A DNA stretch of 64,000 nucleotides from Bacteroidota bacterium (GTDB taxonomy: Bacteria; Bacteroidota; Bacteroidia; B-17B0; Aurantibacillaceae). Shown in pieces: positions 2,370-17,122 of the stretch (positions are counted from its first letter, which is position 1; each line of letters starts with the position of its first letter). Position numbers and translations under genes: made by a program. The notes beneath the pieces were generated by a model. That model saw nothing but the letters and a program-made list of their open reading frames with translations. It was not told the DNA's origin and did no database searches. Where the stretch lies: the NCBI GenBank assembly GCA_030684395.1, contig JAUXTT010000011.1, forward strand, positions 186,001-250,000. The letters run 5' to 3'.

Positions 2370-4742
2370 ATGATTATGCAGAAACTATTTAGCCTTTTAC
2401 TTCTAACCTTTTTCACTACGTGTATAGTGGCGCAAGAAAAAGTAACTCTCAGCGGTTATGTTAAAGACGGAGGAAACGGGGAGTCGCTTATTGGGGCTAA
2501 CATATATAAACAAGGGACTACAATTGGAACCAGCTCAAATGCTTATGGTTTTTACTCCATTAGCCTTCCAAAAGGCAAAAACACAATAGTCTTTTCCTAT
2601 ATCGGCTATCAGCAAATCACTAAAGAACTGGATCTACAGGAAAAAACTTCATTGGATATTGAATTACTGGAAGACGAAAAAACTACGCTGAGTGAAGTAA
2701 CCGTTTCAGCAGAAAAGGAAAATACAAATGTGAAAGGGATGGAAATGAGTGTGAATAAACTTGACATTAAACAGATCGCAAAAATACCGGCGCTCTTAGG
2801 TGAAGTTGATATAGTGCGGGGAATTCAAATGTTACCTGGTGTTACTTCAGTTGGTGAAGGCAGTGGTGGTTTTAATGTACGTGGTGGAAACATTGATGGA
2901 AACTTAATTCTATTGGACGAAGCCCCTGTATTTAATTCATCACATTTATTCGGATTCTTTTCTGTTTTTAATCCCGATGCGGTAAAAGATGTGAAATTAT
3001 ACAAAGGTGGGATTCCTGCGCAATATGGAGGGAGAATTTCTTCTTTACTTGACATTCGCATGAAGGAAGGAAACAATAAAAAATTTGAATTTAATGGTGG
3101 TATAGGAACAATTTTCAGTCGCTTTTCCATTGAAGGTCCTATAAAAAAAAACAAGGCTTCTTTTATTTTAGCAGGAAGAAGAAGTTATATTGATGTACTC
3201 GCTAAACCTGTTATCAAAAAACGACTTCCTGATTTAAAAGATGTAAAATTTTATTTCTATGATCTTACCGGAAAAGTAAACTGGAGGATCAATAAAAAAA
3301 ATCAGGTATTCTTAAGTGGTTATTTAGGTCAGGATGTTTTTGGAGCAGGTTTCCGTTTCGATTGGGGGAATGCAACGGCTACTGCAAGGTGGAATCATAT
3401 TTTCGGAGAAAAGCTTTTTCTTAATTCAACTTTTTACTATAGTAATTACAATTACTTTATTGGTTTTAAAAACGAAAACGATGCTACTGCTTTCGATTGG
3501 AGCTCAAACATTATTAATTATAGCGTTAAACCAGAATTCACTTATTACATGAACCAAAATAATACCATGCACTTTGGCGGACAAGTGATCTATTACAACT
3601 TTAAACCCGGCAAAGCAGTTGTTACACAAGCAAGTGGAGAAAAATCGGATTTTGGTTTAGACAATAAGTATGGCGTGGAAAGTGCCGTATATTTTGACAA
3701 CGAGCAAAAATTCGGGAAACGTTTTTCAATGCAATATGGATTGCGATACAGCATGTTCAACTACATAGGTTCTGGAACTTCTTACACTTATTATGATACG
3801 ATTCCGAATTACAGAAAACGTTTGAAGGATGAAAAAACATTCGGAGACTGGGAAACCATTAAACAATACGGAAATTTTGAACCGCGTCTTTCTATGAAAT
3901 ATGAATTAACGGATGAAAGCTCTGTTAAAGTAAGTTACAATCGGATGGCTCAATACTTACACTTAGTTTCTAATACAGCTGCAGCAACACCTTTAGACAT
4001 CTGGACTCCTGCTACCAACAATATTCTTCCACAACTTTCTGATCAGATAGCCTTAGGTTACTTCAGAAATTTTAAAGAAAATATGTACGAAACTTCTGTG
4101 GAGATCTATTACAAAGACATGCAGAATCAATTGGACTATATTGATAATTCTAATTTATTATTGAACAAATACATTGAAGCGGATCTTTTACAAGGAAGAG
4201 GTCGTGCCTATGGTTTAGAATTATTCATTAAAAAGAACAAAGGAAAACTCACAGGCTGGATCAGCTACACATTAGCTCGCACTGAAAGAAAAGTTCCGGG
4301 ACTAAGCAAAGGTGAATGGTATTTTTCACGTTACGATCGTCCTCACAATTTGAATGTAACCGCATCTTATGAATTAAACAAACGCTGGTCATTCGGAAGT
4401 AACTTTGTACTGATGAGTGGAACGCCGGCTACTTTCCCAAATGTAAAATATGAAGTACAAGGCTATACCGTAACGGATAACACAACAGAAAAGCGTAACA
4501 GCTTCCGTAACACGTTATACCATCGTTTGGATATTTCAGCAACCTGGACGCCAAAGAAAAATGACAGCCGCAAACGTTATAAAAGTAACTGGGTGTTTAG
4601 CGTTTACAACGTGTATAACCGACAAAATGCATTCACTATTTTCTTCAGGCCAAACGAAGATAATCCTACGCAAACAGAAGCAGTTCGTTACTCAGTGTTA
4701 GGAACATTTGTACCGGCAGTTACTTACAATTTTAGCTTTTAA
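2370..4742 (+). CDS. TonB-dependent outer-membrane receptor with carboxypeptidase-regulatory-like domain
   Basis: This is an energy-coupled outer-membrane importer of about 790 residues; the substrate is unknown. A signal peptide (MQKLFSLLLLTFF, cut after VAQ) leads into a CarboxypepD_reg-like beta-sandwich at about residues 18-105 (VTLSGYVKDG, IGANIYKQG). The plug domain follows (GFNVRGGNIDG, LYKGGIPAQYGG at about 170-230), then a large barrel ending in Phe (YNFSF), as the family requires. I prefer ATG 2370, or 2376, over an upstream TTG at 2349 because that TTG lies inside the -7 promoter element. The next gene, 7 bases after the stop, is its DUF4249 partner. The dyad operator upstream suggests specific repression. 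Confidence 0.92.
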   Translation: MIMQKLFSLLLLTFFTTCIVAQEKVTLSGYVKDGGNGESLIGANIYKQGTTIGTSSNAYGFYSISLPKGKNTIVFSYIGYQQITKELDLQEKTSLDIELLEDEKTTLSEVTVSAEKENTNVKGMEMSVNKLDIKQIAKIPALLGEVDIVRGIQMLPGVTSVGEGSGGFNVRGGNIDGNLILLDEAPVFNSSHLFGFFSVFNPDAVKDVKLYKGGIPAQYGGRISSLLDIRMKEGNNKKFEFNGGIGTIFSRFSIEGPIKKNKASFILAGRRSYIDVLAKPVIKKRLPDLKDVKFYFYDLTGKVNWRINKKNQVFLSGYLGQDVFGAGFRFDWGNATATARWNHIFGEKLFLNSTFYYSNYNYFIGFKNENDATAFDWSSNIINYSVKPEFTYYMNQNNTMHFGGQVIYYNFKPGKAVVTQASGEKSDFGLDNKYGVESAVYFDNEQKFGKRFSMQYGLRYSMFNYIGSGTSYTYYDTIPNYRKRLKDEKTFGDWETIKQYGNFEPRLSMKYELTDESSVKVSYNRMAQYLHLVSNTAAATPLDIWTPATNNILPQLSDQIALGYFRNFKENMYETSVEIYYKDMQNQLDYIDNSNLLLNKYIEADLLQGRGRAYGLELFIKKNKGKLTGWISYTLARTERKVPGLSKGEWYFSRYDRPHNLNVTASYELNKRWSFGSNFVLMSGTPATFPNVKYEVQGYTVTDNTTEKRNSFRNTLYHRLDISATWTPKKNDSRKRYKSNWVFSVYNVYNRQNAFTIFFRPNEDNPTQTEAVRYSVLGTFVPAVTYNFSF

Positions 4743-8619: not shown

Positions 8620-8689
8620 CGAATATTTGAAATTTAAATTAGATAAAAAAGCACATATCTGTTTATCAATACATTATAAGTATAAATAC

Positions 8690-8722
8690 GGAAAAATTTG
8701 GAATCAAATTCCAAATTTTTCC
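8690..8722. promoter_or_regulatory. Perfect palindrome (operator) at the 5' end of the DUF4143 ATPase gene
   Basis: The arm GGAAAAATTTGGAAT (8690-8704) is followed by a three-base centre CAA and the exact reverse complement (8708-8722). It abuts the -7 element at 8724, so it occupies the promoter spacer and is placed like an operator. An almost identical palindrome lies just after the stop codon of the same gene (9901-9933). The two differ at one arm position, and the change is matched in the opposite arm. Confidence 0.75.
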
Positions 8723-8723
8723 A

Positions 8724-8731
8724 TATATTTG
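8724..8731 (+). promoter_or_regulatory. -7 element of the DUF4143 ATPase gene
   Basis: TATATTTG is a full match to TAnnTTTG and ends four bases before ATG 8736, so the transcript is probably leaderless. A possible -33 TTTG lies within the palindrome at 8697-8700, 23 bases upstream of the -7 element, which is at the long end of accepted spacing. Confidence 0.55.
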
Positions 8732-8735
8732 TGTT

Positions 8736-9896
8736 ATGATTGAGCGCATCGCAAAAATAAAATTAACTGATCTTGCCAAAAAATTTAAAGCAGTTGCAGT
8801 AACCGGTGCCCGTCAATGCGGAAAAACAACTCTTGTAAAACAAGTATTTAAAGACAAACCTTACGCTTCATTGGAAAATCCGGACACCCGTAATTTTGCT
8901 TTACAGGATCCACGCGGATTTTTACAAACTTATCCCAAAGGTGCCATTTTGGATGAAGTACAACGTGTTCCCGAATTGTTTTCTTACCTGCAAGAAATAT
9001 TAGATAACAGTAAAACCAAAGGGCTATTTATACTTACCGGTTCAAACAATTTTTTATTGCAACAAAATATTTCTCAAACACTGGCTGGTCGTATTGGCTA
9101 TCTCAACCTTTTACCCTTTTCCATAAGTGAGCTACATAGTGCAAAAAAGCTTCCAAAAACGGATGAAGAGTTAATGATAAAAGGTTTTTACCCTCCGGTT
9201 TACGATCAAAAAATTCCACCCGGTGATTGGTGCCCAAATTACATTCGAACTTACATTGAGCGCGACGTAAGGCAGATAAAAGGAATTACCGATCTCATCG
9301 TATTTGAGCGATTCATAAGATTACTTGCGGGACGTAATGCTCAAGAATTGAATAGTAGTGCTTTGGCTGTGGAAGCCGGAGTTGATGTAAAAACTATTCA
9401 ATCATGGATAAGTATTTTAGAAAGTAGTTTTATTATTTACCTCTTAAAACCGCATTTCAAAAACTTTAATAAAACCATTGTAAAACGTCCAAAAGTATAT
9501 TTTTACGATACTTCTTTGGTGTGTTCCCTACTGGGAATTAAAGATAAATTGCAATTAAATACACATCCTTTAAGAGGTTCTATATTTGAGGGAATGGTAG
9601 TTACTGAATTAGTAAAAAAACGCAGCAATGCCGGGCTTCCTATTAACTTATATTATTGGCGTGATAAAACCGGGCATGAGATTGATGTGATAGTTGACAA
9701 CGGAACCAAACTGCTCCCAATAGAGATAAAATCAGGAAAAACGATAAACACAGAGTTTTTTAAAAACCTGATTTATTGGATAAACTTAAGCAACGTCAAA
9801 CAATCCATATTACTATATAGTGGGGAACAAACTCAAAAAAGAAGCCAATCCATTGAAGTGATGAATTGGCGAATACTTATTGAAAAGAATATTTAG
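8736..9896 (+). CDS. AAA+ ATPase with C-terminal DUF4143 domain
   Basis: The 386-residue protein has the AAA_14/DUF4143 layout. The Walker A is GARQCGKTT at residues 24-32 and the Walker B is AILDEVQ near residue 71. A winged-helix-like middle follows near residues 195-245 (SSALAVEAGVDVKTIQSWIS). The C-terminal domain has the PD-(D/E)xK-type pattern Glu/Asp in GHEIDVIVDNG followed by EIKSGK at about 313-335. The family is very common and patchily distributed in bacteria and archaea, but has no settled function. The gene stands alone, has a probable leaderless promoter, and is bracketed by two matching palindromes, an arrangement that suggests a self-contained regulated or transferable unit. 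Confidence 0.9.
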   Translation: MIERIAKIKLTDLAKKFKAVAVTGARQCGKTTLVKQVFKDKPYASLENPDTRNFALQDPRGFLQTYPKGAILDEVQRVPELFSYLQEILDNSKTKGLFILTGSNNFLLQQNISQTLAGRIGYLNLLPFSISELHSAKKLPKTDEELMIKGFYPPVYDQKIPPGDWCPNYIRTYIERDVRQIKGITDLIVFERFIRLLAGRNAQELNSSALAVEAGVDVKTIQSWISILESSFIIYLLKPHFKNFNKTIVKRPKVYFYDTSLVCSLLGIKDKLQLNTHPLRGSIFEGMVVTELVKKRSNAGLPINLYYWRDKTGHEIDVIVDNGTKLLPIEIKSGKTINTEFFKNLIYWINLSNVKQSILLYSGEQTQKRSQSIEVMNWRILIEKNI

Positions 9897-9900
9897 CATT

Positions 9901-9933
9901 GGAAAAAATTGGAATTGGATTCCAATTTTTTCC
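9901..9933. repeat. Perfect palindrome at the 3' end of the DUF4143 ATPase gene
   Basis: The arm GGAAAAAATTGGAAT (9901-9915), centre TGG and exact reverse complement (9919-9933) start four bases after the ATPase stop. The arm matches the 5' palindrome at 14 of 15 positions with the same arm and loop length. Since it lies between two convergent genes and ends in a T-rich arm, it could also work as a two-way transcription terminator. Confidence 0.75.
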
Positions 9934-9956
9934 ACTTTTCAAACAACTGTCGTTTA

Positions 9957-16122: not shown

Positions 16123-16130
16123 TATCTTTG
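16123..16130 (+). promoter_or_regulatory. -7 element of the WYL regulator gene
   Basis: TATCTTTG is a full TAnnTTTG match and ends six bases before ATG 16137. It rules out the upstream TTG at 16128, which lies inside the element, as a start. The leader must be very short or absent. Confidence 0.55.
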
Positions 16131-16136
16131 CAGGAA

Positions 16137-17084
16137 ATGAACCGCATCGAACGTATATCAGCTATTCTTATCCAATTACAATCGCGTAAAATTGTGAAGG
16201 CGCAGGATATTGCCGATCGTTTTAATATTACTTTACGAACCGTCTATCGAGATATTCGTTCTCTTGAGGCATCTGGCGTTCCTATTATTGGAGAAGCGGG
16301 TGTTGGTTATTCGTTGATGGAAGGTTACAAACTTGCTCCTGTTCAGTTTACTATTGAAGAAGCAACCGCTTTTATTACTGCGGAAAAGATGATTGAGAAA
16401 CTTACCGATACAGGTTTGGATGAGAGCTACAAATCAGCTCTGTATAAAGTAAAAGCAACCCTTCGGAACGTCGAAAAAAATTACCTCGAAACGATTGAAG
16501 AAAATATCGAGGTATTAAAAAATCCATATCTCCCTGAAAAGAAAAGCGAAAACAGTCATCTGCAAACCTGTATTGCTGCCATCTCAGGAAAACAAATCTT
16601 AAGTTTAAAATATTTTGCCAATCATAATCAGGAAACCAGTGAACGTAATATAGAACCGGTTGGAGTTTTTTATCAAATGGGTCGATGGTATTTAATTGCC
16701 TGGTGTCACTTACGAAAAGATTACCGTAATTTTCGTTTCGATCGAATAAGGGAATTAAAACTGAATGGCAAAATTTTCGAAAAACAACACCCTTCCTTAA
16801 AAACATTTTTAAAACAGGTAGCTAAAGAAGAAAAACTTGACACCGCTATACTCAGCATTGACAACGAGGTTATAAAATACCTGGGTGAGCAAAAATATTA
16901 CAATGGTTTTGTTTCCGAAAAACGAAATAAACTCACCACTGAAATGACATTTCTTACAGCCGGCTTGGAAGGTATTGCCCGTTGGTACATGATGCTGGGC
17001 GATCATGCCACCATAATTGAACCACCAGCTTTGAAGCTTCGTGTGAAAGAGCTTCTAAAAGAATTGCAAAAAAGAATTAAATAA
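16137..17084 (+). CDS. YafY-type HTH and WYL-domain transcriptional regulator
   Basis: The 315-residue protein has an N-terminal HTH_11 winged helix (IVKAQDIADRFNITLRTVYR at about 18-37, then the wing ASGVPIIGEAGVGYSL). A WYL domain follows at about 140-230, with the signature GRWYLIAWCHLRKDYRNFRF, and a C-terminal extension after it. WYL domains sense ligands such as nucleotides or nucleic acids. The gene is followed after 105 bases by a DinB and a GyrI-like gene, a common grouping, so those are probable targets. The stop codon lies inside a 44-bp perfect palindrome. Confidence 0.9.
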   Translation: MNRIERISAILIQLQSRKIVKAQDIADRFNITLRTVYRDIRSLEASGVPIIGEAGVGYSLMEGYKLAPVQFTIEEATAFITAEKMIEKLTDTGLDESYKSALYKVKATLRNVEKNYLETIEENIEVLKNPYLPEKKSENSHLQTCIAAISGKQILSLKYFANHNQETSERNIEPVGVFYQMGRWYLIAWCHLRKDYRNFRFDRIRELKLNGKIFEKQHPSLKTFLKQVAKEEKLDTAILSIDNEVIKYLGEQKYYNGFVSEKRNKLTTEMTFLTAGLEGIARWYMMLGDHATIIEPPALKLRVKELLKELQKRIK

Positions 17085-17122
17085 ATGTAGGGATCGGTCG
17101 CGACCGATCCCTACATTTATTT
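17079..17122. repeat. 44-bp perfect palindrome overlapping the WYL-regulator stop codon
   Basis: The sequence is a perfect inverted repeat with no spacer, centred between 17100 and 17101. Its GC-rich core arm is GTAGGGATCGGTCG, flanked by AT-rich ends that include the TAA stop of the regulator. A T-rich run follows, so it could act as a terminator. The GTAGGG...CCCTAC design resembles small dispersed intergenic palindromes seen in many bacterial genomes. No second copy is visible in this window. Confidence 0.85.

Follow-up and report, generated by a model that had tools for sequence, protein, structure and literature searches.

Why should a single gene for a DUF4143 ATPase be bracketed by two matching palindromes, one at its promoter and one just behind its stop codon? 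We addressed this question in a window of 64,000 nucleotides, by which we mean the whole stretch of DNA that was analysed. The reading that we favour, at a probability of about two in three, is that a dimer of the ATPase would sit on the palindromes bracketing its own gene, where the promoter site would repress the gene and the 3′ site would strengthen this repression. The features involved are the following.

8690 to 8722, no strand: 5′ palindrome, the predicted cognate site on the promoter side, with inner boxes GGAAT/ATTCC and outer boxes GGAA/TTCC (sequence and co-variation)
8724 to 8731, plus strand: TATATTTG, a putative −7 element of the Bacteroidota type, read from the sequence, with a presumed promoter function
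8736 to 9896, plus strand: gene for a 386-residue STAND-like AAA+ ATPase (AAA_14) with a winged helix and a C-terminal DUF4143 domain of the PD-(D/E)XK type, assigned to PDC-S01 (domains, profile HMM and structure model)
8805 to 8828, plus strand: P-loop GARQCGKT, residues 24–31, with G24, G29 and K30 present in 126 of 126 relatives
9387 to 9425, plus strand: recognition helix of the winged helix, residues 218–230 (model), with V218 and K219 as predicted readers of the inner box (MI z 8.8, 7.6 and 7.2)
9666 to 9671, plus strand: K311-T312, a turn adjoining the nuclease active site and the predicted reader of the outer box (co-variation)
9678 to 9731, plus strand: PD-(D/E)XK motif E315-x-D317...E330-x-K332, with E285 upstream (conservation)
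9901 to 9933, no strand: 3′ palindrome, the predicted cognate site on the stop side, with the same read boxes and one compensated change in the A/T spacer

A re-reading of the window found the two 33-bp palindromes placed as given in the preliminary description and as perfect as it had claimed, with 15-bp perfect arms and 3-base centres: 8690–8722 reads GGAAAAATTTGGAAT-CAA-ATTCCAAATTTTTCC, and 9901–9933 reads GGAAAAAATTGGAAT-TGG-ATTCCAATTTTTTCC. The first can be extended to 19-bp arms with one mismatch (8686–8726) and the second to 16-bp arms (9900–9934). The compensated base change is likewise real, being a single difference between the arms, 9 bases from the central base, that is matched on the opposite arm; this position, −9, lies inside the A/T spacer separating the two read boxes. 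As also described, the 5′ palindrome is followed, after the single base 8723, by TATATTTG, and the stop codon (9894–9896) is set off from the 3′ palindrome by four bases. The pair is confirmed to be far from chance. With up to three mismatches allowed, 100 shuffled versions of the window gave no match to the joint palindrome pattern, and the core TTGGAATNNNATTCCAA occurs twice in the whole 4.87-Mb genome, these copies being the two window palindromes. Scans of the window against Rfam and for tRNAs gave no matches. The longest perfect palindrome of the window is a different one, unrelated to the ATPase sites, which spans 44 bp at 17079–17122 (22-bp arms and no centre), runs across the stop codon of the gene for a WYL/HTH-type regulator (16128–17084) and is followed by a DinB-like gene.

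The gene between the palindromes has a radical SAM gene and a porin-like gene next to it, and encodes a protein that was modelled with a pLDDT of 95.3. Residues 204–262 match a MarR-type winged helix by sequence profile, and the model puts the helix of residues 218–230 inside this region, at the place of the recognition helix, and residues 311–312 in the turn ahead of the strand that bears E315 and D317. By the model and its best structural matches, the protein has an AAA+ core followed by a winged helix, which is the STAND arrangement. The nearest solved structures in a VIA search are the archaeal Walker-type ATPases PAB2304 (2qen, Z 15.0) and SSO1545 (2fna, Z 14.5), which resemble the window ATPase over about 240 residues at 16–18% identity, in an alignment that spans mainly its residues 1–267 and barely covers the C-terminal domain; the structural search is informative up to about residue 303. 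They are followed by NLR proteins (Z 12.6–13.1, about 230 residues) and Avs immune ATPases. Among 126 relatives the P-loop, Walker B, arginine 119 and the PD-(D/E)XK residues are essentially invariant, with E315 and D317 found in 126 of 126 and E330 and K332 in 125 of 126. Because both sets of motifs are so well kept, the ATPase and nuclease activities are probably both real.

The PADLOC profile HMM of PDC-S01 matches residues 1–383 over its positions 11–419 of 422 (E = 1.9e-99). PDC-S01, which combines the Pfam domains AAA_14 and DUF4143, corresponds to COG1373; like the window ATPase, it is a single gene, abundant and patchy in distribution. PMC12988326 describes PDC-S01 as an ATPase fused to a PD-(D/E)XK domain, and this fusion is seen here in both the motifs and the model; our assignment of the nuclease domain rests on the conserved motif together with that source. 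The same paper ranks the family as the fourth most common putative defence across prokaryotes, with validation still pending for most such candidates, and PMC13356809 reports that among single loci in rumen genomes PDC-S01 is the most frequent. The PDC-S01 literature that could be consulted, in part and with few subscription journals or preprints among it, mentions no self-specific palindromes, operators or recognition residues.

If the palindromes belong to the protein, they should recur with it, and the preliminary description had proposed to look for paired palindromes at other DUF4143 loci. The host genome has 13 DUF4143 ATPase genes, at least six of which (the window gene and L006 to L010) carry a promoter palindrome and a matching one at the stop, and pairs were found at 21 of the 37 loci examined in the host family. 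Each paired paralogue has a private palindrome sequence, such as TAACCAAGTAAATTTAAAA at L006 and ACCTTGAAATATTCAAAT at L008. A scan of 1.264 Mb, which is about a quarter of the genome and includes some contig stretches picked around known DUF4143 loci, detected three matched palindrome pairs at most 4 kb apart, all of them bracketing DUF4143 genes. The family operator pattern CCNTGNAA-N21-TTNCANGG has six matches in the whole genome and its reversed control has none. Since the six matches all fall at the ends of DUF4143 genes, two for each of three genes, the sites form no regulon as far as these patterns show. The opposite finding, the window palindrome beside unrelated genes, had been named beforehand as speaking against a special link with the ATPase, and it did not turn up in the searches with the core, the pair scan or the operator pattern.

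In five of six other paralogues tested (L004, L005, L012, L013 and L015), which have no palindromes, tandem direct repeats unmatched by any shuffle lie upstream of the gene, in two or three copies of gene-specific sequence at a spacing of 23 or 32–33 bp, which corresponds to two or three helical turns. They may represent a second operator architecture of the DUF4143 family.

The promoter site, with a sequence particular to each gene, is also found across phyla beyond the host genome. Among 204 relatives, made non-redundant and drawn from genomes, plasmids and viral contigs, 32% have an upstream palindrome with a score of at least 12, against 0.1% of dinucleotide shuffles, and 11% have a downstream one, against 0.0%; in this survey, as at 8690–8722, a symmetric site is found at the gene's own promoter. 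A fixed 37-bp geometry, CCNTG-N27-CANGG, accounts for 38 upstream cases, compared with at most 8 at any other spacing, and these cases span Bacteroidota, alphaproteobacterial plasmids and viral contigs. Its position relative to the gene varies little: the palindrome lies just 5′ of a −7-type box in Bacteroidota, and abuts the ATG in several alphaproteobacteria. The 3′ copy is distributed differently: the 21 of 37 host-family genes that carry it compare with 5 of 165 elsewhere (Fisher p = 3e-14). Its enrichment in this family, where it is spread over distantly related DUF4143 subgroups, suggests a trait of the host lineage more than of any single line of genes. The sole explanation that we can offer, a lineage-specific need for tighter control, is a guess. 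The 3′ site is not essential to the basic function, since most relatives outside the host family do without it.

Some individual loci depart from the common layout. At an occupied alaS-M23 site (L172, 1–260), a third palindrome copy lies about 90 bp further upstream, so the number of sites can grow. At L146 the 3′ palindrome is found about 170 bp past the stop, with extra DNA in between, and is still intact. On a Runella rosea plasmid (L181) the ATPase stop is followed directly, after position 3673, by an apparent CRISPR array with the repeat TTTCAATTCCACTGAGGTACGATTAAG; the related copy on an R. slithyformis plasmid (L182) has unrelated DNA at this place.

To relate site to protein, we aligned by their dyads the odd-length upstream palindromes of 126 genes (effective number 81) and scored each of 366 protein columns against each operator base, with sequence weights and background correction. 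These palindromes come from the scan, and genes with direct repeats or diverged operators lie outside the set. The strongest signals link residue 312 with position −16 (MI z 10.9), residue 218 with −7 (z 8.8) and residue 219 with −5 and −6 (z 7.6 and 7.2), all above the null maxima of 4.6–6.3; residue 311 with −15 (z 5.5) lies within the permutation null. As a control for kinship, each base was predicted from the residue with the comparison limited to proteins of below 45% identity. For the five pairings, residues 312, 311, 218, 219 and 219 each came first of the 366 columns for their own position. The accuracy was 0.58 at −16 against a baseline of 0.31 and 0.83 at −6 against 0.66, with a small gain at −7 (0.59 against 0.53) and −5 (0.65 against 0.60). 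In contrasts between 62 independent nearest pairs, residue 312 ranked first and residue 219 first and second; there was no agreement for residues 311 and 218 (ranks 40 and 22 of 366).

The resulting table of residues and bases is chemically sensible, with familiar pairings: Asn at residue 312 is accompanied by A, Asp by C, His or Lys by G, and Ala, Ser or Val by T, and Lys219 pairs with GG. At the alaS-M23 locus, two species have His312 with CCGTG, and a third has Gln312 with CCATG, in the palindromes on either side of the gene. Applied to the window gene, the code forecasts T at −7, GG at −6/−5, G at −15 and G or T at −16, and both window palindromes agree with it. Residues 218–219 are thus predicted to specify the inner box and residues 311–312 the outer box, one helical turn away. 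Given that protein and palindrome co-vary at two points, the ATPase itself is almost certainly the reader of its two sites, and the statistical dependence, obtained with relatives excluded, points to the own protein as what determines the site. The earlier proposal was that the gene's product controls the gene itself through a matching pair of sites; its binding part is thereby strongly supported.

Taken together, the computations support recognition by the own protein, specificity for the site and, in the host genome, restriction of the sites to the two ends of the gene, as well as two reading elements per half-site. The mechanism that we propose builds on these points. A symmetric dimer of the ATPase would bind both palindromes, with residues 218–219 of the recognition helix reading the inner boxes and the turn of residues 311–312 in the nuclease domain reading the outer boxes at a distance of one helical turn. 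Occupancy of the promoter site would most likely shut off transcription of the gene, and the site behind the stop, kept mainly in the host family, would most likely strengthen the repression, so that both ends of the gene would be held in one nucleoprotein complex, perhaps by looping. An infection-linked signal could then release the complex and switch on the nuclease. Autoregulation is the likeliest role of the sites. They might, however, be substrates rather than operators, because the reading residues adjoin the catalytic ones; with the outer-box reader so near the active site, cutting is conceivable, and it would favour the two rival readings considered first below.

According to the first, which we regard as unlikely, the palindromes would mark the recognized ends of a mobile unit of one gene, where the ATPase-nuclease would cut or join DNA in order to move its own gene; the DNA-reading turn beside the invariant PD-(D/E)XK motif fits such a role. 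The preliminary description had suggested a transferable single-gene unit and a comparison with empty sites in related genomes. At three loci the gene and its palindromes are indeed present or absent together: in a genome of the same genus the two neighbours of the window gene are adjacent and the ATPase gene is absent, at the alaS-M23 locus the gene is found in 3 of 18 species, with a short intergenic gap in most of the rest, and at the glutamine-synthetase locus one species has the gene and two close ones lack it. None of the 15 empty sites at these loci has an operator-like palindrome, so the palindromes are gained and lost together with the gene and did not serve as its target, and the two travel as one unit. 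Homing into a pre-existing palindrome was rejected, as the 15 empty sites contain no uninterrupted recognition site.

Movement itself is suggested by orthologues that lie in unrelated places between species although the genes have diverged about as much as alaS, which points to an old gene that was relocated, or repeatedly lost and gained. In another genus, one pair with 98.5% identity in the gene against 92.7% in alaS is likely a recent transfer, and near-identical units with sharp ends at about −100 to +30 around the gene occur in that genus. Against a dedicated mobile unit, however, inspection of the flanks of 17 loci by eye showed no target-site duplications, the host genome has no near-identical copies, most relatives elsewhere lack the 3′ site and yet change position too, and one occupied site has additional flanking DNA that is unmatched as well. 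The gene could also have been relocated by other recombination. The suggestion of a transferable unit is upheld in a weak sense by the joint presence and absence and the changing position; the missing target duplications and the rarity of the 3′ copy outside the family speak against palindromes that form the ends of a mobile element.

Exact boundaries were sought at several places. The alaS-M23 and glutamine-synthetase loci have clear empty sites, but no base-exact breakpoint could be placed there because the intergenic DNA is too diverged. Genus g58 has sharp ends but no simple empty site, since the neighbourhood of L245 and L253, whose left flanks differ, is rearranged and rich in repeats. 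The g58 ATPases (L343–L347, L245 and L253) lie in this region together with HipA-like genes and other AAA ATPases, and the g58 junctions coincide with the ATPase stop codon. Thermus plasmids were rejected as a source of exact empty sites, as their copies are decayed and rearranged, with no clean boundary; several of them (L187, L189–L192) carry truncated DUF4143 genes with a 96–98% identical 3′ part, apparently decaying copies that adjoin S24, DUF433 and PIN genes. Sphingobium and Dinoroseobacter plasmids were set aside for want of a clean empty site.

A second rival, which seems to us improbable, sees the palindromes as a safety dock or sensor, on which the nuclease would be held inactive until a phage removes, competes for or modifies the sites. 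It draws on the listing of PDC-S01 as a phage-defence candidate in PMC12988326, on the fold, nearest to SSO1545 and PAB2304 and then to the NLR and Avs STAND proteins, and on the invariance of both the ATPase and the nuclease motifs. The antiviral activity of the family is, however, that of a candidate, and autoregulation explains the promoter position more simply.

We give very little credence to a third possibility, in which an unrelated regulator of the host has the 5′ palindrome as its operator and transcription simply terminates at the 3′ palindrome. The 3′ palindrome does fold strongly as RNA (−18.4 kcal/mol, z −5.1), and AT-rich hairpins are able to end transcription, but the terminator scan makes no call on it, and the 5′ copy lies outside the transcript because it is upstream of the −7 box. 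Moreover, the paralogue-specific sequences co-vary with their own protein, the 5′ and 3′ copies are more alike in the read boxes (94% identity) than in the spacer (88%) or at the centre (47%), and the displaced palindrome of L146 is intact. The terminator alternative of the preliminary description, which explains neither the matching read bases nor this displaced copy, is accordingly disfavoured. Least credible of all is a neutral origin, in which local duplication produced the matching palindromes and gene conversion keeps them alike: copies do arise, as the third one at L172 shows, and the two copies of a locus are often nearly identical, but the centres have drifted where the read boxes have not, and the bases track protein residues across phyla.

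Recognition of private sites by the own protein would make the unexplained PDC-S01 family directly assayable, because the protein is predicted to read its own sequence through particular residues and bases: ligand DNA, specificity residues and swap mutants can all be specified in advance. It also suggests that a PD-(D/E)XK domain contributes to sequence recognition, and private sites would explain how 13 paralogues coexist in one genome without cross-talk. It is possible, though doubtful as a generalization, that PDC-S01 as a whole is a family of site-specific DNA-binding and perhaps DNA-cutting proteins with private palindromes around their own genes and a code split between the wing helix and the nuclease domain, whose bound state controls expression as well as nuclease activity or mobility.

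Two kinds of known system invite comparison. Insertion sequences and one-gene transposons also consist of one gene between matching repeats and shift their position, and matching terminal repeats are found at the window locus, as in the 21 of 37 family members and the 5 of 165 relatives elsewhere. Unlike them, the window unit has no target duplications, does not belong to a transposase family and has no near-identical copies in the genome, and the 3′ site of such units is found mainly in one host family. The autorepressors of toxin-antitoxin and restriction-control systems have a gene-specific palindrome at their own promoter, form compact units and spread horizontally, and the window ATPase shares these three traits. 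In contrast to these autorepressors, however, it combines an ATPase, a predicted DNA reader and a probable nuclease in one protein, half of its predicted specificity adjoins the nuclease active site, and its gene has a second cognate site after the stop codon.
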